Source of the DNA: Anaerolineae bacterium | GTDB taxonomy: Bacteria > Chloroflexota > Anaerolineae > Anaerolineales > Villigracilaceae | Assembly: GCA_018648605.1 (NCBI GenBank) | Contig: JABGQU010000003.1 | Location: 1-52,510, forward strand | Direction of reading: 5' to 3' | Length of the DNA stretch: 52,510 nt | Shown: positions 9,523 through 42,569 of the stretch, in pieces | Position numbering within the stretch: the first letter of the stretch is position 1 | Layout of the letters: every line of letters starts with the position of its first letter | Position numbers and translations under genes: made by a program | The notes under the pieces: model-generated | Database searches by the model: none | Told to the model about the DNA's origin: nothing | The model's input: only the letters and a program-made list of their open reading frames with translations

Positions 9523-11079
9523 ATGAATCTCAAGTCATTTTTTGCGCCACCTGTTTTTAGGGGAAATAAAGAAAAAACACTGGAAGCCATCACCCTCAAC
9601 ACCGCGCTCTGGACAGTGATCTCTTTGCTCATTATTATGCAAATTGGAAACTATATCGGGGGAAGAACGCCAGCCTTCATTTCACTCATCAATTATATTT
9701 TCCTTATACTCTGCTTTCTTGCACGTTATGCACTTCACCGTGGCTGGCTAAAATGGGCGAGCATCGTTATGCTAGTTATGCTAGCTCTTGGCATTGCCCA
9801 CATAACAGCCACAATTCTTGCCTTGGGCACCATTCGTACGCCAGCTAGCACAGCCTATATTCTCATCGTCCTTTTTGCCGGGTTTCAATTTGGCAACAAG
9901 GGCATTATTATGTCAATAGTAGGCATTGCCTTTATTCTACTGGCGCTAACTGTTGCCGAAAGCAATCAATTGCTTCGAAAGGCAGATTACAGCGTTGGCA
10001 TAACACAATGGATTTCCTATACGGCCCTCTTTGGTTTGACAGGAAACTTCATGTTTTCTGCAATAAAACTCACTCGGCGTTCATTGCGTCAATCTCAACA
10101 AGAAATTAAACAGCGCAAACGCGCAGAAGATCGTTTGCATATTTTTTCCCGCATCATCGAACAAAATCCGGCTTCTATCATGATAGTAAGCCCCGATGGC
10201 ATCATCGAAGATGTTAACCCGAAGTTTTCAGAGCTAACCGGCTATACAAAAGATGAAGTTTTTGGCGCAAACCCGCGCATTTTACAATCGGGCCTTCACA
10301 CCAAGGGGTTTTATGAAGATATGTGGAGCACAATCTACTCAGGGCAAGAATGGCGCGGCGTATTAAAAAACAGAAAAAAGAGCGGAGAACTATTTTGGGA
10401 AAGGGCCTCTATCTCCCCTGTCTTCAATGAAAAAAAAGAAATCACACACTTTGTCGCGGTAAAAGAAGATATTACAGCACAAAGGGCCGCGCGTAGAAAA
10501 CAAAACGCAACGAACCATCAACTAAAAATACAACTTAAAGAAATCAACAACTTACAAAAAATTCTCAAAAAACAAGCCCTGCACGACCCACTAACTGGCC
10601 TACATAATCGTCGCTATATGGATGAAATGCTAGAAAAGGAATTTTCACGCGCTAAACGTGAAAATTACCCTGTTAGCATCGTCCTCCTGGATATGGATTA
10701 TCTAAAAAACTTCAACGATTCTGGAGGACACGCCACAGGTGATCATGCCTTGCGAACCCTTGCCGCCCAGCTAAAAGCATCGATCCGCCAAGGGGATACA
10801 GTCTGTCGCTATGGCGGCGATGAATTTGCCATTATCTTACCGAAGACAACCAGCAAAGACGCCCTTACCCGCGCTATAGAACTCCAAAAGAGAATGCAAG
10901 GACTAACCCTGCTTTATCGCGCAGAACAAACCTTGCGTATTACCTTCACCGCCGGAATTGCCACTTATCCCACACACGGAAAAACAAGCGAAGAAGTATT
11001 CAATTACGCCGATGTTGCCCTCTATCGCGCCAAATTAAAGGGGCGCGATCGCGTTGAGCTATTTGAACAGACATCATGA
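9523..11079 (+). CDS. Membrane PAS-GGDEF diguanylate cyclase
   Basis: This enzyme makes cyclic-di-GMP from two GTP. Residues 1-190 hold about six hydrophobic membrane segments. A PAS domain follows at about 205-325 (IIEQNPASIMIVSPDG, then the C-terminal VKEDITAQR motif). The GGDEF domain spans about 355-515, with a short helical linker before it. The active loop is intact as GGDEF (about 431-435). The product-inhibition I-site RQGD sits five residues before it, so feedback control by cyclic-di-GMP is expected. The final four bases overlap the cofD start (ATGA), tying its translation to an F420 gene. The signal sensed by the PAS or membrane part is unknown. Confidence 0.93.
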   Translation: MNLKSFFAPPVFRGNKEKTLEAITLNTALWTVISLLIIMQIGNYIGGRTPAFISLINYIFLILCFLARYALHRGWLKWASIVMLVMLALGIAHITATILALGTIRTPASTAYILIVLFAGFQFGNKGIIMSIVGIAFILLALTVAESNQLLRKADYSVGITQWISYTALFGLTGNFMFSAIKLTRRSLRQSQQEIKQRKRAEDRLHIFSRIIEQNPASIMIVSPDGIIEDVNPKFSELTGYTKDEVFGANPRILQSGLHTKGFYEDMWSTIYSGQEWRGVLKNRKKSGELFWERASISPVFNEKKEITHFVAVKEDITAQRAARRKQNATNHQLKIQLKEINNLQKILKKQALHDPLTGLHNRRYMDEMLEKEFSRAKRENYPVSIVLLDMDYLKNFNDSGGHATGDHALRTLAAQLKASIRQGDTVCRYGGDEFAIILPKTTSKDALTRAIELQKRMQGLTLLYRAEQTLRITFTAGIATYPTHGKTSEEVFNYADVALYRAKLKGRDRVELFEQTS

Positions 11080-12008
11080 AAATAGCAGCTCTCGCTGGAG
11101 GTGTTGGCGGCGCAAAGCTTGCGCATGGCCTCGCCCAAATTCTCCCACAAAAAAAACTTACTATCATCGTCAACACCGGCGATGATTTTGAATATCTCGG
11201 GCTATCCATCTCGCCCGATCTCGACACCGTTTGTTATACACTGGCAGGATTAGCAAATCCCGTTACGGGATGGGGGCGGATAGACGAAACATGGAATACC
11301 TTCGACAATATCGCAAAACTTGGGGGACAAACCTGGTTTCGGCTTGGCGACCGTGACCTAGGCACCCATCTGGAGAGAACATTTCGCCGCAAACGTGGCG
11401 ACAAGCTTTCAACCATTACGCAAGATTTTTGCCACGCTTGGAGCGTGAAGCACCGCATCCTACCAATGACAGATGAGCCTGTTTATACAATGGTGAATAC
11501 CCTTGAGCAGGGCGAACTCCCTTTTCAGGAATACTTTGTCCATCAACGTTGTAAACCGACCGTAAGCGGGTTTCGTTTTGACGGTGTGGAGAAAGCACGT
11601 CCTGCGCCAGGAGTTCTTGAAGCCATCAACAATGCCGATGCGGTGGTCTTTTGCCCATCCAACCCTTGGGTGAGTATTGATCCTATTTTAACGGTAGCAG
11701 GCCTTAGGCCCGCGTGCGAAGCGAAGCCCGTCGTAGCCGTCTCTCCAATTATTGGCGGGCAAGCACTAAAAGGTCCCGCCGCAAAGATGTATCGGGAGTT
11801 GAGCATCCAGCCTTCTGCGCTAGCTGTAGCGCGGCATTATGCTGATCTACTGGACGGTTTTGTCTTTGACAAGGTCGATTCAGACAGCAATCTGTCTATA
11901 CAAGAAATGAATATAACAACCCTACTCACTAACAGTATTATGGAGGACATGGCCGGTCGTCGTCGCCTCGCAAAAGATGTGATAGACTTTGTAAACACCC
12001 TTCTTTGA
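11076..12008 (+). CDS. cofD: 2-phospho-L-lactate transferase, F420 biosynthesis
   Basis: CofD (FbiA in actinobacteria) transfers the phospholactyl, phosphoenolpyruvyl or phosphoglyceryl group from a GDP-activated donor onto the deazaflavin Fo, giving (dehydro-)F420-0. The 310-residue protein opens with the family signature AALAGGVGGAKLAHGL and contains VNTGDDFEYLGLSISPDLDT near residues 32-51 and FCPSNPWVSIDPIL near 190-203. The length and motif order are normal. Its ATG overlaps the stop of the diguanylate cyclase, and cofC follows ten bases after its stop. Which donor is used cannot be read from the sequence. Confidence 0.96.
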   Translation: MKIAALAGGVGGAKLAHGLAQILPQKKLTIIVNTGDDFEYLGLSISPDLDTVCYTLAGLANPVTGWGRIDETWNTFDNIAKLGGQTWFRLGDRDLGTHLERTFRRKRGDKLSTITQDFCHAWSVKHRILPMTDEPVYTMVNTLEQGELPFQEYFVHQRCKPTVSGFRFDGVEKARPAPGVLEAINNADAVVFCPSNPWVSIDPILTVAGLRPACEAKPVVAVSPIIGGQALKGPAAKMYRELSIQPSALAVARHYADLLDGFVFDKVDSDSNLSIQEMNITTLLTNSIMEDMAGRRRLAKDVIDFVNTLL

Positions 12009-12018
12009 GAGGCTATCT

Positions 12019-12639
12019 ATGACCATTTGGGCAATTGTGCCTGTAAAACCTTTAAGGCGCGGTAAATCACGCCTTGCTGAAATGCTAAGTGAAGATGAGC
12101 GTGCGGAATTAAATAGTCGCCTGCTCACACATACCCTGGAAACCCTGAAAAACACCCCTGATGTTGAAGAAGTATTAGTTGTTAGTCGTGACCCGAAAGC
12201 ATTGGCAATTGCTCACGATCTTAATGCACGCACAATTCTCGAAAATGGCTCTCCACAATTAAATACAGCTCTAGCGCGCGCAACAGCCGTTGCGAAAATG
12301 TACACAACCAACGGTGTTTTAGTGCTACCGGCAGACTTGCCTTTGATCTCGCAAGAAGATGTAGAGAAGTTGATCGCTGCTGCCAATGAGCATAAACGCG
12401 TTGTTGTGATCACACCTGATCGCCATAAAAATGGCACGAACGCCTTGCTCATTTCACCTGCGGGAATGATTGAGTACGATTATGGGGAAAATTCTTTTAA
12501 CCGCCACTGTGAACGCGCTCGCGAGGCTGGTGCAAGGCTCGAAATTTGTGAGCTGCCTTCAATTGAGCTTGACTTAGACTTACCTGAAGATTTAGAATTG
12601 GTTGCTGAAAAGATTAATTTTTCATTTACAAGTAAGTAA
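12019..12639 (+). CDS. cofC: 2-phospholactate guanylyltransferase, F420 biosynthesis
   Basis: CofC activates 2-phospholactate (or phosphoenolpyruvate or 3-phosphoglycerate in some bacteria) with GTP to give the donor that CofD uses. The 206-residue protein starts with WAIVPVKPLRRGKSRLA, the nucleotidyltransferase signature, and has VLPADLPLIS near residues 94-103 and NGTNALLISP near 137-146. These fit the family in order and spacing. A GAGGCT element before the ATG is a modest ribosome site. The gene closes the plus-strand run of F420 genes; ygfK follows after 107 bases with its own strong ribosome site. Confidence 0.94.
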   Translation: MTIWAIVPVKPLRRGKSRLAEMLSEDERAELNSRLLTHTLETLKNTPDVEEVLVVSRDPKALAIAHDLNARTILENGSPQLNTALARATAVAKMYTTNGVLVLPADLPLISQEDVEKLIAAANEHKRVVVITPDRHKNGTNALLISPAGMIEYDYGENSFNRHCERAREAGARLEICELPSIELDLDLPEDLELVAEKINFSFTSK

Positions 12640-12746: not shown

Positions 12747-15700
12747 ATGAGTGATGTAATGCGCCCCATCAAATTCAAAAGCCTTTTACGCTGGATGATC
12801 GATGAGTACGCAAGCCAGAAAAGTATTTTTACTATTCCTGAAGGAAAGTTTTATTATAAAAAAGACAAAGCCTATTTCGAGATATTTGGCGAAAAATGTG
12901 AAACGGCTATTGGCCCGGCAGCGGGACCTGCCACCCAGCAAGCCATGAACTTGGCTGTATCGTATCTCACAGGCGGACGTTTCTTTGAGTTGAAAACCGT
13001 CCAGATTTTGGATGCGCTCGAAGTAGAAAAGCCTTGTATTGACATCCCCGACGAGGGCTACAACACCGAGTGGTCAACTGAATTTAGCGTGCCCGAAGCT
13101 TTTGATGAATATGTTAAAGGCTGGTTCCTTGTCCACATTCTAGACAAAATGCTCGGCATCTCACAACTTGGCGAACGCGGCTTCGTCTTCAACATGAGCG
13201 TTGGCTACGATCTTGAAGGCATCAAATCTCCAAAAATTGACAACTTTATTGAAGGTCTAAAAGACGCTTCTGAAACAGAGATTTTCCAGGAATGTGTACG
13301 CGACCTGAAAGCCGCCATCGAAGCCGGAAGAATCCCCAATATCAGCGAGCCCGCTTTTGCAGACTCTATTTCGCCGAAGATTTCCAACTCCATTACGCTC
13401 TCGACGATGCACGGAACGCCGCCGGACGAGCAAGAAGGAATTTGCCGTTATCTGATCGGCGAGAAGAAGGTGCATACTTTCGTCAAATTGAACCCAACTT
13501 TGCTTGGCTACGAATATGTGCAAGATATCTTCGATCAGCAGGAATTTGACCACATTCAACTCAAGGAAGAATCCTTCTCGCACGATATGCAATATGATGA
13601 TGCGGTTACGATGATCCGCTCATTGCAGGCTTACGCTAAAGAGGTCGGCGTAGATTTTGGAATCAAGCTGACCAATACGCTTGCCGTTGTTAATGACAGA
13701 GGCGCGCTGCCCACCGACGAAATGTATATGAGCGGGCGCGCGCTTTATCCGCTGACGGTGAATTTGACTAACAAACTCGCACAGGAATTCGAGGGCGAGA
13801 TCGCCATTTCGTATTCGGGTGGCGCGACCTATTTCAATATCGAAGAACTGTTTACAGCCGGTATCAAGCCGATCACACTGGCGACCGACTTATTGAAGCC
13901 GGGCGGATATTCACGACTGAATCAACTGTCAACCGTTCTCGAACGCCCGATGGCAGAAAATCCCGCAGGAGGAATTGATCTAAAAAAACTGCAGAGTGTT
14001 GCTGCCAATTCCATCACCGATGAACGCTACAACAAAGAAGCCAAGCCCTCTGCGCCGATGAAAACCGACGAGAAACTTGGTCTGCTCGATTGTTTTGTCG
14101 CCCCCTGTATTGTGGCATGCCCCGTCCATCAGGATGTGCCCGAATATATCCAATTGATCGCCGAAAATCGCTTTGCGGAAGCCTACGAGCTAATTATTTC
14201 CTCGAATGCGATGCCCTTTGTAACGGGATATATTTGCGAAAGTGCCTGCGAATTAAAATGCGTGCGAAACGATTATGAAGAAACGGTACGCATCCGTGAC
14301 CTGAAGAGGATTGCCTCCGAAAGAGGATTTGACGAAGTAATGAGCAACCTCGCGCCGAAAGTGCCCCATCGAGATGCAAAGGTAGCGGTCATTGGCGCAG
14401 GTCCGGCTGGATTATCTTCCGCCTACTTCCTTGGACGTGAAGGCTTCGACGTGACTGTCTTCGACAAAACTGACAAGATCGGCGGCATGGTCACACATGG
14501 TATCGCTGACTATCGCGTGCCTGATGAAGCCATCGAAAACGATATTGAGTTGGTCAAGAAAATGGGCACAAAATTTGAATTGAATTGTGACCCACAAATT
14601 GACGTGCAAAAGCTAAAAGACGATGGTTTCAAATATGTCCATCTCGCCATTGGGGCATGGAAATCTCGTGACTTGCCCATCGAAGGCGAAACCGACAAAG
14701 TGCTCGGTGCGATCAAATTCCTGACGCAATTCACCGATGATCCCACCCCAATTCGACTCGGTAGAAACGTAGCGATTATCGGCGCAGGCAACTCCGCGAT
14801 GGATGCCGCACGTGCTGCCCTGCGCATTACTGGCGTAGAAAATGTCTATATTATTTACAGGCGCTCACGCAAAGAAATGCCGGCTACCCGTGAAGAATAT
14901 CTGGAAACCACGCACGATGGTGCAACCTTCCATGAGTTGGTCAACCCCGTCAGTTTGCATGATGGCGTGCTGAAATGCCAGCAAATGAAACTTGGCGCAA
15001 AAGATGCCAGCGGGCGCAGACGACCGATCCCTGTAGATGGAGATTTTGTAAACTTCGAGATCGACACCGTCATCACCGCCATCGGCGAATTGGTCGAATA
15101 TGAATTGCTCGAAAAGAACGAGCTCGTTCCCGACGAAAAAGGCGATATCCCGGTCAACGAATACCACGAAACCGACGTTGAAAATGTTTATCTCGGCGGT
15201 GATGCTTATCGTGGTCCTTCTTCGATCATCGAAGCAATTGCTGACGGACGCGCGGTTGCAGAGGGCATTATCGAAAAAGAGAACGTTACGCACGCCCCGA
15301 TCAAGATTGCAGACGAATATGCCTTTGATAGCGAAAAACGCTTTGGAGAAATCGCCGAGCGTAAAGCGGAACTCAAACCACAAGTCTCGCTTGAAGAATT
15401 CGACATGGATTTCAGTACTGCCGCAAACCGCTGTCTTTCCTGCAATATCGTTTGCAACAAATGCGTAGAAGTCTGCCCGAATATCGCCAACCTGCCCATC
15501 AAAGTGGAAGGTTTCCGTGACCCCAATCAGATTTTGCATATTGAAGGTCTTTGTAACGAATGTGGTAACTGCGCCGTCTTCTGTCCTTACGACAGTGACC
15601 CCGCCAAAGACAAATTCACACTCTACTGGACAGTGGATGAATTTGAAAAAGGTCATCACGAGGGCTACGTTTATACATCTGATAATACGCTGAAGATGCG

Positions 15701-15860
15701 TCACCGCGAAGATATATACGATCTCGTTCTTGAAAATGGCGTGGTCAGCTTCGCAGATGCTTCATTCCAAGGCAGCGAAGAAATGCACGGGCTGCTAAAG
15801 ATGATCAGCACTGTCGAGAACGAATATCCTTATATTCTGCACCTTGACCCTGTAGTATAA
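12747..15860 (+). CDS. ygfK: YgfK-type putative selenate reductase flavoprotein
   Basis: This 1037-residue iron-sulfur flavoprotein matches the YgfK family, named 'putative selenate reductase subunit' from E. coli and usually found with selenium-dependent molybdenum hydroxylases. Residues 1-440 form a dihydroorotate/dihydropyrimidine-dehydrogenase-like barrel. Residues about 448-520 carry the Cys-rich N-terminal Fe-S domain of glutamate-synthase-type reductases ([12 protein letters not shown], then CESACELKC). An FAD motif [12 protein letters not shown] is near 545, an NAD(P)H motif [12 protein letters not shown] near 675, and two ferredoxin-type 4Fe-4S motifs ([16 protein letters not shown] and [14 protein letters not shown]) near 895-950. 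It should pass electrons between NAD(P)H and a partner. The other candidate partners here are the FAD subunit at 18.9 kb and the Mo subunit at 25.6 kb. AAGGAG precedes the ATG, and a perfect terminator follows the stop. Confidence 0.93.
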
Positions 15861-15917: not shown

Positions 15918-16280
15918 ATGCTTTTCGACCAAACAGTCACCTTCCTTCACACCAGCAACCTGAAAGCCATCGCTCAGTTTTACGAAGAAATTCTCGAGCT
16001 CCCTCTCGTGCGAGATCAGGGCGTTTGCCGTATCTACAAAACCAGCGCAGATGGCTATCTCGGATTCTGTACACACCTTGAAATGCCACACAAAGAAGGC
16101 ATTATCCTGACCCTCGTCAGCGATGACGTAAATGGCTGGCATGAACGCTTGCTGAAAAAGGGTGTAGAAATTCCTGAACCGCCAACTCACAACGCTAAAT
16201 ATCAGATATATCACTTCTTTTTCAAAGACCCTAATGGTTACACGCTTGAAATTCAACGCTTTGATGAGAGATTGGGATAA
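15918..16280 (+). CDS. VOC (glyoxalase/bleomycin resistance) family protein
   Basis: This 120-residue protein has the vicinal-oxygen-chelate fold, seen in TVTFLHTSNLKAIAQFYEEILELPLV at the start and FFKDPNGYTLEIQRF at the end. The final Glu in the TLEIQ strand is a usual metal ligand. Members include glyoxalases, dioxygenases and antibiotic-binding proteins; no specific activity can be assigned. I chose the ATG at 15918. An in-frame GTG at 15894 falls inside the ygfK terminator stem and is unlikely. No ribosome site is visible before 15918, so translation may be weak or depend on read-through of the terminator. Confidence 0.75.
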   Translation: MLFDQTVTFLHTSNLKAIAQFYEEILELPLVRDQGVCRIYKTSADGYLGFCTHLEMPHKEGIILTLVSDDVNGWHERLLKKGVEIPEPPTHNAKYQIYHFFFKDPNGYTLEIQRFDERLG

Positions 16281-16346
16281 GGACGCAATACCCACTATGG
16301 TATTTAGCACATCTATGATTCTCAAAGAACTGGCGAGAAAATATTT

Positions 16347-18380
16347 ATGAAGCCAACCATCTCGAAAAAAATTAAAATTCCAGAGCTTGTTATTCATAAA
16401 GTTTTTTTCTTGGCAATCCTGCTGGAAAGCTCTATTCTCTTTCTCTTACTAGCCCTTCATCCATCAAGTGTTGCAGGGAGAGCAATTTGGCTATACTCAG
16501 TTCCGCGCTTTTTGGAACTGAGTATTATTCTCACCGTAGCTATTTTCGCAGGCTGGTGCCTTAGAAGCCTAGCTGCGCAAACGTGGAGAGATAAACTCAA
16601 TAAATTAGCAACCAATTCATCCTGGAATGAAATTTTCATTTTTGGAGGATTTTTAGCTTTAATAATAAGCCGTCTTGCTATCATAATTCTGCAAGCATTT
16701 TCAGAAAGCCCTGATTTACGCCATCTGCTTGGTTACGCGACGCACCTCCGCCCTCTGGCATTCTTCTTCTCATTAATTGGTTTCGAGATAACAATTTGGG
16801 CACTCTGTATAAACAAAGATAATATACTTCACATCCTGAGTATAAAAAAACAATATTTTAACCGTGTCATAACCTTATGGGGTCTGCTCAGTATCACGGT
16901 TATCTTTAGCATCTTTTTTGAAGATTTTATGGCATTGCAAAAAATAACCACTCCTTATTCCCCTGTTTTAGAATGGGGAATTTTTCTTGGATGGGTTTTA
17001 GCAACGATCATCATGATGTTTTTTTTAGCACTCAGAGAACCACGCATACATAAAAAACAGGCTTTCTTTATCGCTTTCTTGATAGCTGTGTCGGCTTTTT
17101 TGTTTCAAATTAGCCTTCAATCTATTATGCGCCCCTACGCAAAAGACAGCTTTTATTTCCAAGAGTGGTCGTCAGAAGCTATGATACAAACTGTATCTTT
17201 AAAGGATCTCCAAAGGAATCCACTGGAAACACTCAACAATATTCATACAAAGCCCCCCGGATTCGATGCGATCAGAGCTATTCTTGTTCATTTATGGCCA
17301 GCACAAGATGCGCTTGGTGCTCTTTTGCATGTTGATTTTCTACTCTACAAATTATGGACTGTACTCTACAGCATTCTGGGAGCCATTGCCTTTTTGTGGC
17401 TATCTCAACTGACCGAAATAAAAGTGGCCCTTATTGCAACTTTTATTCTTCTTCTTCACCCCGCTACACTCCTTTACTCAACATTGTTGGATAGTAATTT
17501 CCTAACGACTTTTCTCGTTTTTGTCTTTTGTTATTTAATGTGGAAAATCAAAAACGAATATCGCGTTCATCTATTCATCGTGGTACTTGCAACGCTAGCA
17601 CTTTTCTTTACCAGAGCTATTTTCCAATACCCTTTTATTATTGTTGTCGGATCATCTCTTTTCTTGCTTAGGATACAAAAACGAAAAGTTTTGGTTTTTC
17701 TTTTAATTACAGCAAGCATTGTTGGCCTATACGGAGCTAAGCAATATCATAAGTTTGGCATTCTTTCAGCTTCATCCTTTACCGGAGTGAATTTAAATCG
17801 CTCCGTTGGCAATCCAAACTTCATAAACTATTGGACACTTGATATTGATTTTCAAGAACAGGATAGCTCCCTGCCGAAAACCCTTACAAGGATCAAGAAA
17901 GTAGATGGTTCGCCAAACTTTAATCACATCCAATATCTAGCGTACAACCAGGAACTTATCGAAGATTTCAAAGAATATATCTTTGCAACACCTGTATCCA
18001 AGATCACCATATCTTACTGGGAAAATGTGCAGATCTATTTCGAACCTTCCAGCCAATACAATACGGAACACGCGATCATCGATCGCATTCCATGGAAAGG
18101 CTTTTATGATCGTATCTTTTCAACTCCTGTTTTTCCTGGACTGCTTTTAGTCTTTGGAATACCATGGCTAAAAAAAGTAGTAAAAGAAAAAGACTATCTC
18201 GCAAGTATAGGACTGGTGCTCCCCGGGCTATATATCTTTTTCATTACAGTGTTATTTGAGAAGGGCGAAAATATGCGTTTTAAATTCTTCCTGGAGCCTA
18301 TATTATTTATTTTCCTGGTTTCCCAACTGTATGACCTAGGCAAAAATATCCGCGCTAAACTCTCAACAAAGTCCACATAG
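16347..18380 (+). CDS. GT-C-like multi-spanning membrane protein
   Basis: This 677-residue integral membrane protein has about fourteen hydrophobic segments. The layout, with a large loop after the early segments (NNIHTKPPGFDAIRAIL near residue 300) and a soluble C-terminal part, recalls GT-C fold glycosyltransferases of the ArnT/PMT type, in which a KPP motif is common. It would then move a sugar from a lipid carrier at the outer membrane face, but that is inferred from shape and one motif. The stretch is visibly richer in A and T than its neighbours and uses more AT-ending codons, so it may be a later arrival. The hotdog gene follows after seven bases. Confidence 0.55.
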   Translation: MKPTISKKIKIPELVIHKVFFLAILLESSILFLLLALHPSSVAGRAIWLYSVPRFLELSIILTVAIFAGWCLRSLAAQTWRDKLNKLATNSSWNEIFIFGGFLALIISRLAIIILQAFSESPDLRHLLGYATHLRPLAFFFSLIGFEITIWALCINKDNILHILSIKKQYFNRVITLWGLLSITVIFSIFFEDFMALQKITTPYSPVLEWGIFLGWVLATIIMMFFLALREPRIHKKQAFFIAFLIAVSAFLFQISLQSIMRPYAKDSFYFQEWSSEAMIQTVSLKDLQRNPLETLNNIHTKPPGFDAIRAILVHLWPAQDALGALLHVDFLLYKLWTVLYSILGAIAFLWLSQLTEIKVALIATFILLLHPATLLYSTLLDSNFLTTFLVFVFCYLMWKIKNEYRVHLFIVVLATLALFFTRAIFQYPFIIVVGSSLFLLRIQKRKVLVFLLITASIVGLYGAKQYHKFGILSASSFTGVNLNRSVGNPNFINYWTLDIDFQEQDSSLPKTLTRIKKVDGSPNFNHIQYLAYNQELIEDFKEYIFATPVSKITISYWENVQIYFEPSSQYNTEHAIIDRIPWKGFYDRIFSTPVFPGLLLVFGIPWLKKVVKEKDYLASIGLVLPGLYIFFITVLFEKGENMRFKFFLEPILFIFLVSQLYDLGKNIRAKLSTKST

Positions 18381-18387
18381 GTAAAAT

Positions 18388-18861
18388 ATGACCCACAACA
18401 AACAGCCCGGCTCTAAAATGTGTTTCGTCTGCGGACAAGAGAATCCATTCGGATTGAAATTGGATTTTTACGAAACTACCTCCGGCGAAGTGACCGTCGA
18501 TTACATCGCGCCCGATCATTTTCAAGGCTATCCCGGGATGCTGCATGGCGGCATCGCCGCAACGATCCTGGACGAAGTAGCTGGTCGCGCTCATATAGGC
18601 AATAATCCGCCCCGCTTCATGTATACCGCTAAATTGGAGATCAAATACCGTAAAAACGTCCCTGTCGGACAGCCGTTGACGATCATTGGCAAAGCAGGCA
18701 AGGATCGCGGTCGCATGGCTGAGGGCTGGGCAGGAATCTACGATAACGAGGGCAAACTCCTCGTCGAAGCGAATGCGCTGCTCGTCAATCTGCCCGAAGA
18801 GGCACTCGGTTCCGCCAATCTGGAAGAATTGGGTTGGAAAGTTTATCCAGACAAAGAATAA
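18388..18861 (+). CDS. PaaI-type hotdog thioesterase
   Basis: This 157-residue single-domain hotdog protein begins with a Cys-containing motif MCFVCGQENPFGL, common in PaaI-like thioesterases. It has the core GMLHGGIAATILDEVAGRAH near residues 51-70, whose Gly-Gly and Asp/Glu are typical of acyl-CoA thioesterases. The later TAKLEIKYRKNVPVGQPL strand also fits. It probably hydrolyses an acyl-CoA in the cytoplasm. It lies seven bases behind the GT-C-like gene and is likely co-transcribed. The FAD subunit gene follows after 83 bases. Confidence 0.85.
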   Translation: MTHNKQPGSKMCFVCGQENPFGLKLDFYETTSGEVTVDYIAPDHFQGYPGMLHGGIAATILDEVAGRAHIGNNPPRFMYTAKLEIKYRKNVPVGQPLTIIGKAGKDRGRMAEGWAGIYDNEGKLLVEANALLVNLPEEALGSANLEELGWKVYPDKE

Positions 18862-18944: not shown

Positions 18945-19691
18945 GTGATTACTACATATCATCGCCCAAAGACCTTAACGGAAGCCTTAACGCTCATTGC
19001 CCAGCCGAAAACATATCCACTTGGCGGCGGGATACAACTCAGTCAGTTCAGCGACGAAGCATTTAAAGTCGTCGATCTGCAAGCCCTTGCCCTGAACGGA
19101 ATATCTAAAAAAGGCAGCACACTTGAGGTCGGCGCTACCGCGACCTTGCAAGCGCTGCTCGAAACGCCCGATCTCCCCGATTCGCTTAAGAAAGCCATCC
19201 AACACGAAGCCAGCCTGAACACGCGCAATACCGCCACCGTTGCAGGCACATTGGTCGCGTCAGATGGGCGCTCGCCCTTTGCCGTGATGATGATGGCTCT
19301 GGATGCAAAAATTACCTTGCGCGACACGAATAATGAAGAAGAAAATATCCAAATTGGCGACCTTTTACCGTTGCGTGAAGAGAAACTTCAAAAGAAACTC
19401 ATTACCCAAATCAGCATCCCTACTAACACCAAATCTGCTTACGAATATGTTGCCCGTACGCCAGCCGATAAAGCCATCGTTTGTGCAGCGCTAACGCAAT
19501 GGTCAGCAGGGCGAACGCGCCTCGTGCTTGGTGGCTGGAGCACATCTCCCGCATTGGCGATGGACGGCAAAGGCGCAGAAGGCATTGAAGCCGCTGCCAA
19601 GAACGCCGCCCATGACGCTACCGATGCTTGGGCTTCAGCAGAATATCGCCAGGATGTGGCTGCAACGCTGGCACAACGCTGCCTGGCTTAA
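18945..19691 (+). CDS. Molybdenum hydroxylase FAD-binding subunit
   Basis: This 248-residue protein is the FAD-binding (medium) subunit of xanthine-dehydrogenase-type enzymes, similar to YgfM. It starts TYHRPKTLTEAL and has YPLGGGIQLSQF near residue 24, the first FAD-binding loop. RNTATVAGTLVASDGRSPF near residues 94-112 is the second FAD loop. It is shorter than the 280-300 residues of XdhB proteins, and the C-terminal CO-dehydrogenase-flavoprotein domain looks reduced. The GTG start is backed by a GGAGG ribosome site ten bases away. The matching Mo/Fe-S subunit is not adjacent but 6 kb downstream on the same strand. It should shuttle electrons from the Fe-S centre to NAD or to a flavoprotein such as YgfK. 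Confidence 0.88.
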   Translation: MITTYHRPKTLTEALTLIAQPKTYPLGGGIQLSQFSDEAFKVVDLQALALNGISKKGSTLEVGATATLQALLETPDLPDSLKKAIQHEASLNTRNTATVAGTLVASDGRSPFAVMMMALDAKITLRDTNNEEENIQIGDLLPLREEKLQKKLITQISIPTNTKSAYEYVARTPADKAIVCAALTQWSAGRTRLVLGGWSTSPALAMDGKGAEGIEAAAKNAAHDATDAWASAEYRQDVAATLAQRCLA

Positions 19692-25561: not shown

Positions 25562-28432
25562 ATGAATATCCAATTAAAAGTCAACGGGAAAATGCTCGGA
25601 ACGAGCGCCCTCCCCAGCGAAACCCTTCTCACCACGCTGCGAAAGCTCGGCTATCACAGCATCAAATTTGGGGATGAGCACGGTCTCAGCGGCGCGGATA
25701 CGGTGCTAATGGACGGCAAACCCGTCAACGCCGGGATGATGCTCACCGCGCAAGCAGAGGGACACGAGATCGCTACCCTCGAGGCTTTGGGCGAACATCC
25801 CGAACAAGGTTGGAAGAAAACGGATGGATTACATCCACTCCAAGCCGCTTTTATTGAGACGGGCGCGATCCAATGTGGATACTGTACCCCAGCCCAAATT
25901 CTCGCGGCAAAATCGCTCCTCGACGAGAAGCCTGCTCCCACTGAAGCAGAAATTCGGGATGCCATCGGCGGCGTGCTTTGCCGTTGCACGGGCTACGTTA
26001 AACCTGTTGAAGCAGTGATGCGTGCGAGCGCAGTCATGCGTGGCGAAAAGACGGATGCTCTTAAAACAACCCTCTTCCCCTCCGAAAAAGCCCCCGAATA
26101 TCAAACTGTTGGTAAATCGGAGCCAAAAGTAGATGCCGTGAAACTCGCGCAAGGTAAATCTGCCTTTGTTGCAGATATTGAAATGCGAGATATGCTCCAC
26201 GCAAAGATACTTAAATCGCCTTATGCTCATGCCCTCATCAAATCTATTGATGCCAGCAAAGCCCGTGCGTTGCCTGGCGTTGCTGCTGTGTTGACTCACG
26301 AGGATATTCCGCGCGTTATCTGGTCTACGGCAGGGCAATCCGATCCCATCCCGGGACCACTGGATATGTTCTCGTTAGATCACAAGGTTCGGTACGTGGG
26401 GGACAGGGTAGCGTTTGTCGCCGCAGAAACGCCCGAGATCGCCGAGCAAGCCGTGGGCATGATCGAAGTCGAGTACGAGGAACTTCCCATCCTGTTGGAT
26501 ATCGAAGAAGCGATGCTGCCCGGCGCTCCCATCCTGCATGATGAACCGGAGTATGTAAATTTCGCCGATTCAGATGCATCCAAAAATCTGGGGGCAGAAA
26601 TCCGTATCGACATCGGTGATGTGGAAAAAGGTTTCGCTGAAGCCGACCGTGTTTTTGAAGGCGTTTACGATGTCTCGAAAGTGCAGCAGGCGCATATTGA
26701 GCCGCATGTTGTCATTACTTATTGGGATGAAGATGATCGTTTGGTGATTCGCACAAGCACGCAGGTGCCTTTCCACGCCCGTCGTATGCTCGCCCCCGTG
26801 CTGGGCTTGCCAATCAAACGCATCCGTGTTGTCAAACCCCGCGTTGGCGGTGGATTTGGCGGCAAACAAGAAGTGCAAGTTGAAGATATTGCCGCGCATC
26901 TGACCATCGCCACCGGTCGCCCCGTAATGCACGAAAGCACCCGCGAAGAAGAATTTACCTCCAGCCGTTCGCGTCACCCAATGCGACTCTGGATGAAAAC
27001 CGGCATCAAGAACGATGGCACAATGACCGCCAACGAAATGAAAATTCTCTCCGATACCGGCGCATACGGCGGACACGCTCTGACCGTAACCGGCAACACC
27101 GGACACAAATCGCTTGCGCTTTACGTTGGCGACGGCGAATATCGCAAGAACCCCAATATCCGCTTCCATGCCGATATTGTATACACCAACCGTCCGCCCT
27201 CCGGCGCATATCGTGGCTACGGCGTACCGCAAGGCTACTGGGCACTCGACCGCCAATTCGAGAAAATTGCCCGCGAAATGGGCTTCGACCCCATCGAATT
27301 CCGCTTGAAAAACGCATTGCGCTCAGGTGAATATCACCCCTTCAGCACCGCCTGGAACGAAGGACGCGAACCGCGCCCCGAGATCATCCATACCGTTGGG
27401 CTGGAAAAATGCGTGGAAGAAGGCAAAAAAGCCATCGGCTGGGACGAGAAATTCGGCAACGAAAACTGGCAACAGGTATCACCCACCAAACGAAAAGGTA
27501 TCGGCATCACCACCGCCATGCAAGGCACAGCCATTCCCTATCTCGATATGGGTGGCGCATCCATCAAAATGAACGACGACGGCTCCTTTAACCTGCTCGT
27601 TGGTGCAACCGATCTTGGCACCGGCTCCGACACCGTTTTAGGGCAGATGGCAGCCGAAGTCCTTGGCGTGCCCCTCGAAGATATGATCGTCTATTCATCC
27701 GACACCGATTTCACACCCTTTGATGTCGGCGCATACGCATCCTCCACCACCTTCGTCTCTGGCGCAGCCGCCGCACACGCCGCTGAAAAAGTGGCAGAAC
27801 GGATTAAGATCCGCGCCGCCATGATGCTGGAATTGGACTCTCACGAGGAGATGGTGCTGGAGAATCGCCACGCAGTCGCCCCTGATGGACGCATGGTTCC
27901 GCTATCTGAAATTGCTCTTGAATCATTACATCGGAATGAACAAGAACAGATCATGGCTGTAGCATCTTTCGTTTCATCAACATCTCCGCCTCCCTTCGCT
28001 GCCCAATTCGCCGAAGTAACTGTAGATACTGAGACCGGTCAGGTTACCGTCGACAAACTACTCATGGCAATAGATGGCGGCAAGATCGTTAACCCCATCA
28101 CCGCAGCAGGGCAAGTCGAAGGCGGCATGGTACAAGCCCTCGGCTACGCTGTTTGTGAAGAGATGATCTACAACGAAAAAGGTGAAGCCCGAGAAAAAGA
28201 CTTCGGCGATTACCACATCTACCGCGCCGACGAAATGCCGGAAATGGACGTGATCTTCGTCGAAACCTTCGAAGAGAGTCACCCCTTCGGCGTGAAAGCA
28301 GTTGCTGAGATCCCCCTCGATGGCGTTGCCCCCGCAGTCGCAAACGCCGTCCGCGATGCCGTCGGCGTGGATATTGATATTCTCCCCGTTACACCGGAGA
28401 AAGTTTGGAAAGCGCTCAAACTCAACGCCTAG
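25562..28432 (+). CDS. Fused Fe-S/molybdenum subunit of an XdhD-like hydroxylase
   Basis: This 956-residue protein joins the Fe-S subunit and the catalytic Mo subunit of a xanthine-dehydrogenase-family hydroxylase, as in E. coli XdhD. Residues 1-75 are the plant-ferredoxin-like domain, but every cluster cysteine is replaced (FGDEHGLSGADTVLMDG). Residues about 90-155 are the all-alpha [2Fe-2S] domain with its four cysteines intact (CGYC and CRC). The Mo domain starts near 190. It has the cofactor motif GGGFGGKQEV near 428, GAYRGYG near 546, and the active-site Glu in VAEIPLDGVAPA near 917-928. It should hydroxylate an N-heterocycle such as a purine, but the substrate is unknown. AAGGAG precedes the ATG. 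The FAD subunit and XdhC genes lie 6 kb upstream and 8 kb downstream. Confidence 0.92.
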   Translation: MNIQLKVNGKMLGTSALPSETLLTTLRKLGYHSIKFGDEHGLSGADTVLMDGKPVNAGMMLTAQAEGHEIATLEALGEHPEQGWKKTDGLHPLQAAFIETGAIQCGYCTPAQILAAKSLLDEKPAPTEAEIRDAIGGVLCRCTGYVKPVEAVMRASAVMRGEKTDALKTTLFPSEKAPEYQTVGKSEPKVDAVKLAQGKSAFVADIEMRDMLHAKILKSPYAHALIKSIDASKARALPGVAAVLTHEDIPRVIWSTAGQSDPIPGPLDMFSLDHKVRYVGDRVAFVAAETPEIAEQAVGMIEVEYEELPILLDIEEAMLPGAPILHDEPEYVNFADSDASKNLGAEIRIDIGDVEKGFAEADRVFEGVYDVSKVQQAHIEPHVVITYWDEDDRLVIRTSTQVPFHARRMLAPVLGLPIKRIRVVKPRVGGGFGGKQEVQVEDIAAHLTIATGRPVMHESTREEEFTSSRSRHPMRLWMKTGIKNDGTMTANEMKILSDTGAYGGHALTVTGNTGHKSLALYVGDGEYRKNPNIRFHADIVYTNRPPSGAYRGYGVPQGYWALDRQFEKIAREMGFDPIEFRLKNALRSGEYHPFSTAWNEGREPRPEIIHTVGLEKCVEEGKKAIGWDEKFGNENWQQVSPTKRKGIGITTAMQGTAIPYLDMGGASIKMNDDGSFNLLVGATDLGTGSDTVLGQMAAEVLGVPLEDMIVYSSDTDFTPFDVGAYASSTTFVSGAAAAHAAEKVAERIKIRAAMMLELDSHEEMVLENRHAVAPDGRMVPLSEIALESLHRNEQEQIMAVASFVSSTSPPPFAAQFAEVTVDTETGQVTVDKLLMAIDGGKIVNPITAAGQVEGGMVQALGYAVCEEMIYNEKGEAREKDFGDYHIYRADEMPEMDVIFVETFEESHPFGVKAVAEIPLDGVAPAVANAVRDAVGVDIDILPVTPEKVWKALKLNA

Positions 28433-34935: not shown

Positions 34936-36279
34936 ATGAGTCAAACCTACGTCATCGGACATATTAACCCCGACACCGATACCATCGCCGCCGCACTCGG
35001 TTATGCCTGGTTGCTGCACGAGTGCGGCGAAAGTAATATTAAAGCCGCCCGTGCTGGCGCACTCAACCCCCAAACTATGTGGATCCTGAAACATCTCGAT
35101 TTGGATGCGCCCACGTTGCTGAACGACGCCTCCCCGCGTTTTAATGCCGTCCTCCGACGATTGGATACCACCGACCCGGACGCACCGCTAAGAGACGCTT
35201 GGGCGATTGCATCGCGCACCGGTGGCGTTGCTCCCGTTGTGGAAGCGGACGGCAAACCCTTCGGCTTAATCACGGGGGGCAGCATTTTCGCCTATATGAG
35301 CGAGGTGATCGGCGCGCATAGCAAAAAGCAGGAGATGAAGATTTCCGATATTCTCGACGCTCCCTGCCGCGAAGCCTGCAATATGGACGTGCCTACCGTC
35401 AAGGCAAGAGGACGCATCCGAGATTCTATCAATCGGCTGCTGCGCTTCGAAGGGGATAATTTCTTTGTCGTCAATGAAGATGGCGTCTACAAAGGTGTCT
35501 GCCGCCAACGGGATGCCCTCAACCCGCCGCGTATCAAGATCGTCATGGTCGATCATAACGAGGCTCGTCAGGCATTGGCGCATCTCGAAGAAGCGGAATT
35601 GATCGAGATACTCGACCATCACCGTTTGGGGAATCCATCCACGCATGTGCCGATCCGCTTTACGGTGGATATTGTCGGCAGCACCAGCACGCTCGTTTCG
35701 GAGAAGATCGAAGAAGCCGGTTTGAGCGCGCCGCCGCGTATCGCGGGGGTTTTGTTGGCAGGTTTGCTTTCTGATACGTTAATTCTCACATCCCCAACGA
35801 CAACCGACCGCGACAAAGATGCCGCAAAACGCATGGCGCGCTGGGCATTTGTCCACGGCGGTCCTTTGGCGGGCGAGACAGTCCAATCTTTCGGCGAACA
35901 GATCCTGAGCGCGGGAGCCGGTTTGGGCACGCGCGAGCCGAGCGAGATCGTTAGCAGTGACCTGAAACTCTACGACGGCGGTGAATACAGATTTGCCGTC
36001 TCCCAAGCCGAGGTGACCGATATGCGTCAACTCGACAAATATCTCAACAAATTACAAGATGCGCTCAAAGAAACGCGCAGCAAAAAAGCAGTCGATTTTG
36101 CGATGCTGATGGTCACAGACGTGGTGCGCGGCTCAAGCCGTTTGCTGATCGTGGAAGAACCCAGCGAACTAAGCGACCTGCCCTACCCGCGCCAACCCGA
36201 CGGCACACGCCTAGCGAAAGGCGTTGTCTCGCGCAAGAAGCAGTTATTGCCAACGGTTTTGGGGCTGTTGGAGCGATAG
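34936..36279 (+). CDS. Family II inorganic pyrophosphatase with CBS domains
   Basis: This 447-residue DHH-superfamily enzyme hydrolyses pyrophosphate using Mn or Co ions. The metal-binding motifs are GHINPDTDTIAAA at residues 8-20, VDHNEA near 204, and LDHHRLGNPSTH near 226-237. The C-terminal DHHA2 part ends with the substrate-binding SRKKQLLPTVLG near 434-445. Between them (about 75-190) is a pair of CBS domains that bind adenine nucleotides and regulate such enzymes. The usual extra DRTGG domain is absent, so this is the shorter regulated form. A TGAGGA element precedes the ATG. The deaminase gene follows after 36 bases. Confidence 0.92.
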   Translation: MSQTYVIGHINPDTDTIAAALGYAWLLHECGESNIKAARAGALNPQTMWILKHLDLDAPTLLNDASPRFNAVLRRLDTTDPDAPLRDAWAIASRTGGVAPVVEADGKPFGLITGGSIFAYMSEVIGAHSKKQEMKISDILDAPCREACNMDVPTVKARGRIRDSINRLLRFEGDNFFVVNEDGVYKGVCRQRDALNPPRIKIVMVDHNEARQALAHLEEAELIEILDHHRLGNPSTHVPIRFTVDIVGSTSTLVSEKIEEAGLSAPPRIAGVLLAGLLSDTLILTSPTTTDRDKDAAKRMARWAFVHGGPLAGETVQSFGEQILSAGAGLGTREPSEIVSSDLKLYDGGEYRFAVSQAEVTDMRQLDKYLNKLQDALKETRSKKAVDFAMLMVTDVVRGSSRLLIVEEPSELSDLPYPRQPDGTRLAKGVVSRKKQLLPTVLGLLER

Positions 36280-36798: not shown

Positions 36799-37590
36799 AT
36801 GAAAACTATCTATCAAGCGCTCGCAGAAATTGAAGCGAGTAATCAAAGTGCTGCGTTAGCAACGATCGTGCGCAGCAAAGGCTCCACGCCACGCCACGGG
36901 ACGAGCAAAATGCTGGTCTACGCTGACGGAAGCACCCTTGGCACGGTCGGCGGCGGGGAGATGGAGAGACGCGTCCACGCGGCGGCGTTGGAAGCTATGC
37001 AGGATGGCGAAGCACGCTATCTGACCTATAACATGTCTGACCCGTCGAAGGGCGATCCCGGCATTTGCGGCGGGACAGTGGAGGTCTATGTGGAACCTAT
37101 TTTGCCTGACCCCAGTTTGTTGTTGATCGGCGCAGGGCATGTCGGCAAAGCGGTGGTGCATCTCGCCAAATGGCTGGGATTCCGCACCATCGTTGTAGAA
37201 GATAACGCCGAGTTTTGCACGCCGGAGCATATCCCGGGCGGGGATGAGTATCATCCCGTTGCAATGGATGCGATCACTGAGCATGTGCAAATTAACGCGC
37301 AGACCTATATCGTCATGGCGACACGCGGCGCGGATGTGGACGCGGTCGCGTTGCCCGATCTACTTGCCAGCCCCGCTGCCTATATCGGCGTAATCGGCTC
37401 GAAGCGACGCTGGTTAGCGGCAGCAAGTTTACTGCAAGAACGCGGCGTAGACGAAGCGCAGCTCAAGCGCATCCACTCGCCCATCGGTCTTGAAATTGAA
37501 GCCGAGACGCCAGAGGAGATCGCCGTCAGCATTATGGCGGAGGTCTTGATGATCCGGCATGGTGGCACGGGCGAGAAGATGAGTGCCTAA
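36799..37590 (+). CDS. xdhC: XdhC/CoxI-family molybdenum hydroxylase maturation factor
   Basis: XdhC-type proteins bind the molybdenum cofactor, help to sulfurate it and insert it into xanthine-dehydrogenase-like enzymes. The 263-residue protein opens with the XdhC_CoxI domain (ATIVRSKGSTPRHGTSKMLV, then GTVGGGEMERRV). The C-terminal half is a Rossmann domain, LLIGAGHVGKAVVHLAK near residues 109-125. GVIGSKRRWLAA near 195 and RIHSPIGLEIEAETPEEIAVSIMAE near 227-251 are the classical closing motifs. It is the only maturation gene in the window and presumably serves the hydroxylase subunits at 18.9 and 25.6 kb. Its closeness to a purine-type deaminase gene supports a purine or N-heterocycle substrate. 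Confidence 0.93.
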   Translation: MKTIYQALAEIEASNQSAALATIVRSKGSTPRHGTSKMLVYADGSTLGTVGGGEMERRVHAAALEAMQDGEARYLTYNMSDPSKGDPGICGGTVEVYVEPILPDPSLLLIGAGHVGKAVVHLAKWLGFRTIVVEDNAEFCTPEHIPGGDEYHPVAMDAITEHVQINAQTYIVMATRGADVDAVALPDLLASPAAYIGVIGSKRRWLAAASLLQERGVDEAQLKRIHSPIGLEIEAETPEEIAVSIMAEVLMIRHGGTGEKMSA

Positions 37591-40772: not shown

Positions 40773-42569
40773 TTACAAATCCACTAAACCGAGTTCTTCC
40801 AACTTTTCAGGCAAAGGCACGCCATTTTCGTCCCAGCTACGGGCGGTGTAGTAGGCGGCGAGCATCTCGTCGAAGGGGATGACATAGCCTTCGGCGCCAC
40901 CGTCGGGGAGCGGTTGGAGGATGGGGTCGGGCAGATGATCGTCCGCGCCGACCAAGCCTAAATTAAGGTTGATGCGCCGTTTGAGATTCCAGGCACGTTC
41001 GCCAGCAAGCATTAGTCCATCCAAGTCCAAATCCAGACCGCAAGCGGCATTTACCAAATCCAACACGGTTTCGGGTGGGACGTTGGCAAAATGGCAAAGC
41101 ACGAGAGCGTTGCCGATGGTGCGCCAATCCTGATGGAGGGCAACATTAGCAGCCTTCTCAGCCCCCGCGTAGCGATCAAAATATTCAAGCCCAAGACTTT
41201 CATCGACCTGACCGATATCCGCAAGGAAATAATCAGATTGATTATGACAAGCACCACGCGGCGACGTAGCATAAACCAAGGCCATCCCCGATGCCCCACG
41301 CGGATCGTGATAAGCCAGCTCCAAACCATTAACTTGCACCGCTTGTTCGGCAACACCAAAATGCTTTCCCAACGCGAGCGCACCATCTGCAAGCAGCGCG
41401 CCAAAGCCTTCACGGCGTGCCATCTGATGCAAAAGTGTTTCAGCAGATTCGGCATTGCCCCAATTAAGCGAAAGTCCGTCAGTATCTTTAGTAGAAATAA
41501 TGCCTTGCTCAAAAAGACTATACGCAAGACCAAGCGTGCCGCTCGCCGAGATCACATCCATGCCATAGCGGTCACAAAGCTCTCCCATACGCGTTGCAAA
41601 AACGGCATCGGTCAACCCAAGATTGGGCCCGAAACCAACCAGCGTTTCGTATTCTGGCCCCTTGCGTTTTTCACCATCACCGATATTAACCACACGCCCG
41701 CAAGCGATCACGCAGGCATGGCAAGCCTTTTTGCCAACCAGAATAGTCTCAGCAACGCTCGAGCCCGAAACCTTATCGGCGCCTTCGAGCGCACCTGCGC
41801 TGAAATATTTTTTCGGCATTTCGCCGAGATAATCGAGATAATCCGCTGCGCCCGCCGAGCCGAGATCGCTTAAAACACTCGTCATCGGGTCGGTTTTTAA
41901 GGTGCGGTTCGCACCTGAGCGCAAGCCTTTGAATTCATCCGGTCTCGCCAGCGGGATCGCACCCGTGCCGCGCACAGCAATGGCTTTGAGATTCCTCGAT
42001 CCCATGACCGCGCCAAGACCTGTGCGTCCTGCTGCACGCCCATGGTCGCAGAACAACCCAGCAAAGGCGACCTTGTTCTCGCCAGCGATACCAATGCTCA
42101 AGATTTTTGTGGATTTCGAGCCTGTTTCCGTTTGTAGGGATGTCTGTATCTCGTAGGTATCCTGACCCATAAGATGGTCTGCCGCTCTTAATTCGGGCTT
42201 GCCATCGTTTAACCAAAGATAACTTGGTGAGGCACTTTCTCCCGTCAACCAGATGCCGTCGTAGCCCGCCTTACGTAATTCGACGCCGAAAAAGCCGCCC
42301 ACATTGGATTCTGCCCACAGGCGGGTGGCGGGAGATTTTCCTGCTACCACAAATCTACCCACAGCGGGACCAGCCGTCCCCGTGAGCGGACCGGTAAGGA
42401 TCAGCAGCGGAGATTCCGGCGAAAGCGGATCAAGGTCAGCGGTCAGGTCGGCATACAAAATCCGCGCGGCGAGGGAGGCTGCGCCAAGATAATCACGTTG
42501 CCATTCGTCTGGGATTTGGTAGTCTTCAAAGGCTTGGGTGGAAAGGTTGATTTTTAGGATGGGTTGCAT
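40773..42569 (-). CDS. Tungsten-containing aldehyde:ferredoxin oxidoreductase
   Basis: This 598-residue enzyme of the AOR family interconverts aldehydes and carboxylic acids with ferredoxin, using a tungsten bis-pterin centre and one 4Fe-4S cluster. The N-terminal part (ILTGPLTGTAGPAVGRF near 55-71, then WAESNVGGFFGVELRKAGYDGIWLTGE near 86-112) is the pterin-binding domain. The cluster cysteines are in CHACVIACGRV near 284-294, with the distant fourth in NAACGLDLDLDGL near 510. The AMGSRNLKAIAVRGTG motif near 188-203 is also typical. No ferredoxin or maturase gene is adjacent. It follows the SCP2-like gene by 32 bases, and nnrD lies downstream. The aldehyde used is unknown. Confidence 0.93.
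   Translation of the reverse strand: MQPILKINLSTQAFEDYQIPDEWQRDYLGAASLAARILYADLTADLDPLSPESPLLILTGPLTGTAGPAVGRFVVAGKSPATRLWAESNVGGFFGVELRKAGYDGIWLTGESASPSYLWLNDGKPELRAADHLMGQDTYEIQTSLQTETGSKSTKILSIGIAGENKVAFAGLFCDHGRAAGRTGLGAVMGSRNLKAIAVRGTGAIPLARPDEFKGLRSGANRTLKTDPMTSVLSDLGSAGAADYLDYLGEMPKKYFSAGALEGADKVSGSSVAETILVGKKACHACVIACGRVVNIGDGEKRKGPEYETLVGFGPNLGLTDAVFATRMGELCDRYGMDVISASGTLGLAYSLFEQGIISTKDTDGLSLNWGNAESAETLLHQMARREGFGALLADGALALGKHFGVAEQAVQVNGLELAYHDPRGASGMALVYATSPRGACHNQSDYFLADIGQVDESLGLEYFDRYAGAEKAANVALHQDWRTIGNALVLCHFANVPPETVLDLVNAACGLDLDLDGLMLAGERAWNLKRRINLNLGLVGADDHLPDPILQPLPDGGAEGYVIPFDEMLAAYYTARSWDENGVPLPEKLEELGLVDL

Follow-up and report, generated by a model that had tools for sequence, protein, structure and literature searches.

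Domain architecture and cluster ligands of the enzyme at 25562-28432

We analysed a 52,510-nucleotide stretch of the genome of an Anaerolineae bacterium (assembly GCA_018648605.1, contig JABGQU010000003.1, positions 1 to 52,510; hereafter the window), and in particular an open reading frame (ORF) at 25562-28432 on the forward strand, which runs through 956 residues with no internal stop. Judged from its sequence, the product is an XdhD-like fused molybdenum hydroxylase of the xanthine oxidase family that lacks the distal [2Fe-2S] site. A Fer2_2 domain was detected at residues 83-152 (25808-26017; Pfam, 93.5 bits), and the two molybdenum-cofactor binding domains and the hammerhead domain (MoCoBD_1, MoCoBD_2 and Ald_Xan_dh_C; PF02738, PF20256 and PF01315) scored above the Pfam cut-off within residues 180-956 (26099-28429). 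No match to Fer2 was obtained at E <= 1 in this protein, and residues 1-75 (25562-25786) correspond to a ferredoxin-type domain without ligands. This region was nevertheless modelled with confidence, the predicted local distance difference test score (pLDDT) being 87.2 overall, with block means of 87-94 for residues 1-70.

The best match among NCBIfam models was TIGR03313, the equivalog model of XdhD, with a score of 701.6 bits, which does not reach the cut-off of 1101.9; E. coli XdhD scores 2122.8 against the same model. Among solved structures, the closest whole-length match to the predicted model was the Desulfovibrio gigas aldehyde oxidoreductase (1sij; Z 38.7, root-mean-square deviation 2.4, 852 residues aligned), which likewise has fused Fe-S and molybdenum domains but contains both [2Fe-2S] clusters and is only 30% identical in the structural alignment. 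Two clusters are described as the rule in this enzyme family, the D. gigas enzyme being exceptional only in its missing flavin adenine dinucleotide (FAD) domain (PMC3958847). The top sequence match among solved structures was the molybdenum subunit of 4-hydroxybenzoyl-CoA reductase (1rm6).

A preliminary description of this locus, made from the sequence alone, had claimed that the four cluster cysteines of the ferredoxin-type domain are replaced, and that the second, all-alpha domain retains CGYC and CRC. Both statements held. The stretch FGDEHGLSGADTVLMDG and the motif NAGMML are present in the frame, and on alignment with relatives that have the full cysteine set, the four former FeS-II ligand codons (25673-25735) were found to specify D38 (25673), S43 (25688), D46 (25697) and G58 (25733). 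CGYC and CRC are present in the second domain, where the four proximal ligands C105, C108, C140 and C142 (codons at 25874, 25883, 25979 and 25985) are intact. We denote such states by the number of ligand cysteines in the distal (first) set plus that in the proximal (second) set; the window protein is 0+4.

Orthologues, taken at a threshold of at least 60% identity, were collected from a family sample of 61 genomes, the window's own included. A close or more remote homologue was found in all 61 genomes at E <= 1e-60, and 51 provided an orthologue with a readable N-terminus; the remaining ten were G005, G011, G012, G022, G026, G035, G040, G053, G056 and G057. None of the 51 carries a ligand cysteine of the first set, which rules out a frameshift, a wrong start, or a read or assembly error as the cause of the pattern. 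Partial loss of this kind thus marks a whole clade, as envisaged in the preliminary description. The first-set residues were DSDG in 32 orthologues, DTDG in 12, DSDA in three, DTDA in two, and DSDV and DTDN in one each. At the second set, 48 of the 50 orthologues readable there have CCCC, the exceptions being G059 (SCDE) and G023 (GYSA), both of which belong to the window's genus. Identity of the family orthologues to the window protein was about 63-86%. All eight cysteines are present in two other molybdenum hydroxylases of the window's genome (contigs C59 and C98), and in the closer paralogues L065 and L066 from the same family. The alignments indicate that loss of the distal site is real, conserved and recurrent.

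The window's own genus includes 0+4, 0+1 and 0+0 forms. Among near kin, L107 (88% identity; genome G061) is 0+1, and both L108 (83%; the same contig region as the G023 enzyme) and L109 (82%) are 0+0. Ratios of nonsynonymous to synonymous substitution (dN/dS) for residues 1-80, 81-160 and 180-956 were 0.095, 0.096 and 0.071 between the window protein and L107, 0.253, 0.122 and 0.071 between the window protein and L108, and 0.084, 0.047 and 0.079 between the two 0+0 proteins L108 and L109; these are simple Nei-Gojobori estimates, with synonymous sites close to saturation in places, and one part of the L107-L108 comparison gave no value. Purifying selection thus persists in residues 1-80, and the cluster-free ferredoxin-type domain is therefore probably still required, possibly as a scaffold. 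In the molybdenum domain, E916 (28307-28309) occupies the position of the catalytic glutamate of the family, and glutamate was found at this position wherever it could be aligned.

Distribution and order of ligand loss among relatives

Named bacterial and archaeal genomes were scanned for relatives, and the best 80 of 563 confirmed relatives were retained. They come mostly from Anaerolineae and other Chloroflexota, and the sample is biased to near kin. A tree of 88 rows was assembled from these 80, the window protein, E. coli XdhD, five rows from family genomes (two being the paralogues L065 and L066) and a partial E. coli XdhA. Eight rows were left unscored, namely the partial XdhA and seven with an unreadable N-terminus (L137, L160, L161, L166, L168, L169 and L174), and the states of L180 and of the Cetobacterium and plasmid proteins were scored by eye. 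The sampling of proteins related to E. coli XdhD was confined to plasmid records. The 80 scored rows comprised 41 proteins that are 4+4, 29 that are 0+4, two that are 0+1 and eight that are 0+0. Of the 39 rows that lack the distal site, 10 had an incomplete proximal set, as against 0 of the 41 that have it, the rows being related and not independent cases; none of the 80 combined a complete distal with an incomplete proximal set. At the level of sequence, the distal site has been lost repeatedly across related enzymes, sometimes along with the proximal one, and gaps in the proximal set are confined to proteins without the distal site.

In a tree of the molybdenum domain (41 rows), the distal state required eight changes and the proximal state six, numbers that are inexact because the tree leaves the branching of 4+4 and 0+4 Anaerolineae partly undecided. 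We read these changes as losses of cysteines, since regaining four cysteines is implausible. The 0+4 state taken alone was not clearly clustered on this tree, with 91 of 500 label shuffles giving values as low. A single origin of distal loss was rejected by the approximately unbiased (AU) test (p 9.4e-10, and 1.8e-6 when E. coli, L164, L181 and L183 were left out).

All eight cysteines are absent from the E. coli K-12 protein (NC_000913.3), as stated in the preliminary description, which had regarded the window protein as an intermediate. An intermediate state is borne out by the 0+1 and 0+0 forms of G059 and G023 in the same genus. However, the sister of E. coli XdhD in the 41-row tree is a 4+4 protein of Cetobacterium somerae (support 100/100), whose gene is surrounded by uric acid genes, and the rejection of one origin speaks against a single path from a loss of the window type to E. 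coli XdhD. The N-terminal-domain tree shows the E. coli-Cetobacterium pairing to consist of two long branches. We relied on the 41-row tree with Cetobacterium in preference to the quick 88-row tree, in which E. coli XdhD lies on a very long branch.

The tree of the N-terminal domain (40 rows, ligand columns masked) required five distal changes and rejected one origin less strongly (p 0.0097). It also placed L149-L152, which are 0+0, inside the window's clade. Exchange of this domain between lineages is therefore possible, and could explain some of the loss events, which would then have some shared history.

Two relatives, L181 (an unclassified bacterium) and L183 (Marinimicrobia), encode separate small subunits upstream of the molybdenum subunit and show distal loss likewise; fusion is thus not required for it. 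A small Fe-S subunit of the halophilic archaeon Haloarcula marismortui (pNG700; L207, 7307-7885), beside selD and yqeB, has serine in place of the third distal cysteine and was scored by eye as 3+4.

Gene neighbourhood and putative substrate

Seven further genes of interest lie on the forward strand of the window. Upstream of the enzyme are the F420 synthesis genes cofE (6370-7146; TIGR01916), cofD (11076-12008; TIGR01819) and cofC (12019-12639; TIGR03552), each above its cut-off. cofC is the left neighbour of the gene for YgfK (12747-15860), a probable reductase of yanthine (2,8-dioxopurine) by its TIGR03315 score (1361 bits, over the cut-off of 835.3) and by synteny. There follow a 4HBT thioesterase-fold protein (18388-18861), which is the left neighbour of the FAD-type subunit here and in many relatives, and that YgfM-like subunit itself (248 residues, 18945-19691; TIGR03312, 71.4 bits, under the cut-off of 241.5). 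Beyond the XdhD-like gene lies an XdhC-family maturation protein (36799-37590; NF045664, 236.8 bits, cut-off 350). This order is a stretched version of the cluster at L123, a 4+4 locus that holds SsnA, an F420-dependent NADP oxidoreductase-type gene, cofE, cofD and cofC, a luciferase-family gene, the thioesterase-fold gene, the FAD subunit and the XdhC-family gene. Other 4+4 loci show most of these genes, and HyuA was seen at L125, L135 and L145. SsnA is above cut-off on another contig of the window's genome and in 53 of the 61 family genomes; in the genomes outside the family sample, those of L149-L152 and L164 included, it was matched at E <= 1e-80 in all 15, with 11 above cut-off.

Several ORFs near these genes were also recorded. 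The ORF at 34936-36279 precedes the XdhC-family gene, and similar ORFs lie between the XdhD-like and XdhC-family genes at L123 (12052-13395) and L157 (13002-14351); they may encode manganese-type pyrophosphatases. About 3 kb from the XdhC-family gene, the product of 40773-42569 on the reverse strand matches aldehyde ferredoxin oxidoreductase in part (153.9 bits, cut-off 868). The urate cluster at L123 includes a DUF6909 protein (16076-17797), next to which a small subunit of xanthine dehydrogenase is encoded; L125 (16059-17804) and L157 (18422-20179) have ORFs of comparable length.

E. coli XdhD-YgfM is reported to convert urate to yanthine with reduced nicotinamide adenine dinucleotide (NADH), and E606 of XdhD was proposed by Li et al. 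to orient urate; gut bacteria remove uric acid by this pathway, which is studied for gout (PMC12507026). The window protein carries the equivalent residue, E600 (27359-27361, by alignment), and glutamate was found here in all scored rows of the tree except L164, 4+4 forms included; the partial E. coli XdhA row has no residue aligned at this position. The E. coli system (TIGR03313/TIGR03312) resembles that of the window in its fused architecture and length, the erased first site, the nearby YgfM-like and YgfK genes and SsnA in the genome, and differs from it at 39% identity in having lost both sites on another branch, whereas the window protein keeps the proximal one. Because it shares this glutamate, is encoded near genes for YgfK and a YgfM-like subunit, and comes from a genome that also encodes SsnA, the window protein is most likely a urate-to-yanthine dehydroxylase. 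Other members of the xanthine oxidase family run as reductive dehydroxylases are 4-hydroxybenzoyl-CoA reductase and the urolithin C dehydroxylase Ucdh. The selenium-dependent molybdenum hydroxylases share the neighbourhood theme of YqeB, YqeC and SsnA (Haft and Self 2008, PMC2276186), but the window protein falls below the cut-off of their model TIGR03311 (463.9 against 830.45).

YgfK has a published role in yanthine reduction, and a luciferase-family protein was suggested by Li et al. as the F420-dependent yanthine reductase of Chloroflexota (PMC12507026). The luciferase-family gene directly follows cofC at L123, L227 (G039), L054 (G050) and L228, with one ORF intervening at L157, and YgfK takes this place in the window and in G062; in G023 it lies about 3 kb further, at the contig end. 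The YgfK copies at L225 and L223 contrast likewise with the luciferase-family gene at L123, L227, L054 and L228. No luciferase-family match was found at E <= 1e-40 in the genomes of the window, G062 and G023. This swap next to cofC supports the published suggestion, in that the two proteins would perform the same step, and YgfK is probably the next enzyme of the pathway after the window protein.

Across the family sample, the luciferase-family protein was present in 45 of 61 genomes (E <= 1e-60). YgfK gave no match in 59 of 61 at E <= 1e-100, a strict cut that missed split copies in G023 and G059, so that the number of genomes with YgfK is a lower bound. A search with its N-terminal part found it in five of 20 genomes (G000, G023, G059, G062 and G055); all but the G000 match were partial, most of them at contig ends. 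Where the luciferase-family gene is present, the proximal set is kept in all 42 of the readable family genomes, and where it is absent, in six of eight, an association that is only suggestive because both proximal losses fall in one genus. Beyond this sample, L149-L152 and L164 are 0+0 and come from genomes that have the luciferase-family gene.

Electron supply to the molybdenum site

Tentatively, we favour an XdhD-type urate C6 dehydroxylase whose electron wire has been stripped from its far end, with electrons entering at the proximal cluster. The enzyme would remove the C6 oxygen of urate, giving yanthine in anaerobic uric acid breakdown. Its ferredoxin-type domain would be a folded, cluster-free scaffold, and the proximal [2Fe-2S] of the helical domain would be the sole remaining cluster. 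Reducing equivalents would reach this cluster from a donor docking where the distal cluster once relayed, and would pass on to molybdenum for reduction of urate. The retained YgfM-like subunit could act as this donor over a longer distance, or could by now have a mostly structural role, and YgfK would carry out the following step. This account is favoured because the residue pattern is conserved, the molybdenum domain is under strong purifying selection, E600 is kept, the gene context and the precedent of E. coli XdhD-YgfM agree with it, and the clusterless domain is modelled with confidence. The data show directly the residue pattern, how it recurs and in what order, and the surrounding genes, from which the substrate, the donor and the route are inferred.

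Four points weigh against it. The window protein is below the TIGR03313 cut-off (701.6 against 1101.9), and for the whole clade we infer substrate and activity from sequence. The 0+0 forms (E. coli, L108, L109, L149-L152 and L164) look functional and cannot use a route through the proximal cluster, which may therefore be dispensable in the window protein too. Finally, among the candidates sought (YgfK, the luciferase-family gene and the FAD subunit), no donor gene tracked the loss.

An unlikely alternative, though one to be taken seriously, is that no electron chain is needed. Molybdenum would instead be reduced at the active site by a second, hydroxylatable substrate such as an aldehyde or a purine, and re-oxidised by urate, in the manner of a transhydroxylase, leaving both clusters, and then the FAD site, free to decay. 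The window protein would be one of the first-step forms, its own genus holding the later steps. Such decay is consistent with the incomplete proximal sets in 10 of 39 distal-less rows, which fall in separate lineages and retain a constrained molybdenum domain, and with the FAD subunit encoded just upstream of L149-L152, whose second glycine motif reads AE, AE, LE and GE in place of GG. E. coli XdhD, with zero cluster ligands, is reported active in an assay of 10 µM XdhD-YgfM, 1 mM NADH and 1 mM urate, for which the text describes controls lacking enzyme or substrate but mentions none lacking NADH (PMC12507026). NADH was, however, used in that assay, and E. coli lacking xdhA, with xdhD present, did not consume xanthine in anaerobic glucose medium (PMC12507026), which argues against a simple xanthine-yanthine exchange; an isomerase version of the second-substrate idea is disfavoured by these published mutants. 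The absence of a chain is also hard to reconcile with the proximal set retained by 48 family members, the window protein among them, with the GG of the first glycine motif kept in nearly all FAD subunits, and with that of the second kept in E. coli YgfM and L164.

It is rather doubtful that the FAD of the YgfM-like subunit still supplies electrons by a longer hop to the proximal cluster, at a rate that a slow enzyme tolerates, although this and the chain-free reading are the chief competitors of the favoured account. An FAD-type subunit was found in all ten genomes searched, 0+0 ones included, but such a hop could not serve the 0+0 forms, and at about 20 Å it would be only marginal, given cofactor distances and a tunnelling estimate. 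In the flavin motifs, LAGGT and TYGGN of E. coli XdhB correspond to PLGGG and TVAGT of the window subunit. PLGGG is the first motif in most of the clade, and some GG is found there in nearly all rows. The second motif is AG in 16 of 18 named 0+4 loci, as against 11 of 27 4+4 loci (14 others having GG and two another sequence), the rows again being related; the subunits of the 0+0 genomes G023 and G062 retain PLGGG and VAG. Weakening of the flavin site therefore partly accompanies distal loss, yet occurs without it, and makes flavin binding itself unsure.

That electrons are re-routed through YgfK as a new partner of the cluster-depleted enzyme, as the preliminary description had supposed, is improbable. 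YgfK is encoded 9.7 kb upstream of the window enzyme; G023 (0+0), G059 (0+1) and G062 (0+0) carry YgfK or pieces of it and no luciferase-family reductase, and both E. coli and L181 pair YgfK with loss of the proximal set. The proposal does not fit the family, where YgfK was unmatched in 59 of 61 genomes at E <= 1e-100, and in 15 of 20 by the N-terminal-part search, yet the distal site is lost in 51 of 51 readable ones. In the genomes of L149-L152, L164 and L156 the luciferase-family enzyme is present but no YgfK reaches the cut-off, L183 and G055 have YgfK yet keep the proximal set, and in G061 (L107, 0+1) neither YgfK nor the F420-type reductase was found. YgfK also has a published role of its own (PMC12507026).

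We consider it very improbable that the replacing residues still hold a metal site, whether an Fe-S cluster ligated by aspartate and serine or another metal ion. The D-[ST]-D pattern recurs in separate lineages, but the fourth position is mostly glycine, otherwise alanine, valine, asparagine, glutamine, serine or aspartate, the pattern is departed from in L164, L151, L181, L183, L157 and E. coli XdhD, and we know of no [2Fe-2S] cluster with aspartate and serine ligands of this kind. Hardly credible is a decaying relic without function, for although ligands are lost stepwise within the window's genus, all three parts of the protein are under purifying selection, the catalytic positions are kept, and orthologues stay at about 63-86% identity throughout the family.

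In the accessible open-licence literature on XdhD/YgfN we found no statement on missing cluster ligands. Neither 2Fe-2S nor cysteine occurs in the main text of the 2025 activity paper (PMC12507026), and cluster loss in E. coli XdhD is not mentioned in the available parts of that paper or of a commentary (PMC12990295), which counts the electron donor of the counterpart in clostridia among the questions still to be answered. The window protein is a variant within a known kind of enzyme, distinguished by an ordered loss of redox centres. Clusters deemed standard equipment of the family (PMC3958847) are affected, yet the distal site is gone in all readable family members, and some relatives, E. 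coli XdhD among them, are without both clusters while the molybdenum site stays under selection. The Anaerolineae relatives are natural 0+4, 0+1 and 0+0 versions at 82-88% identity, in which the role of each cluster can be compared, and the ordered loss makes the role of each redox centre testable.

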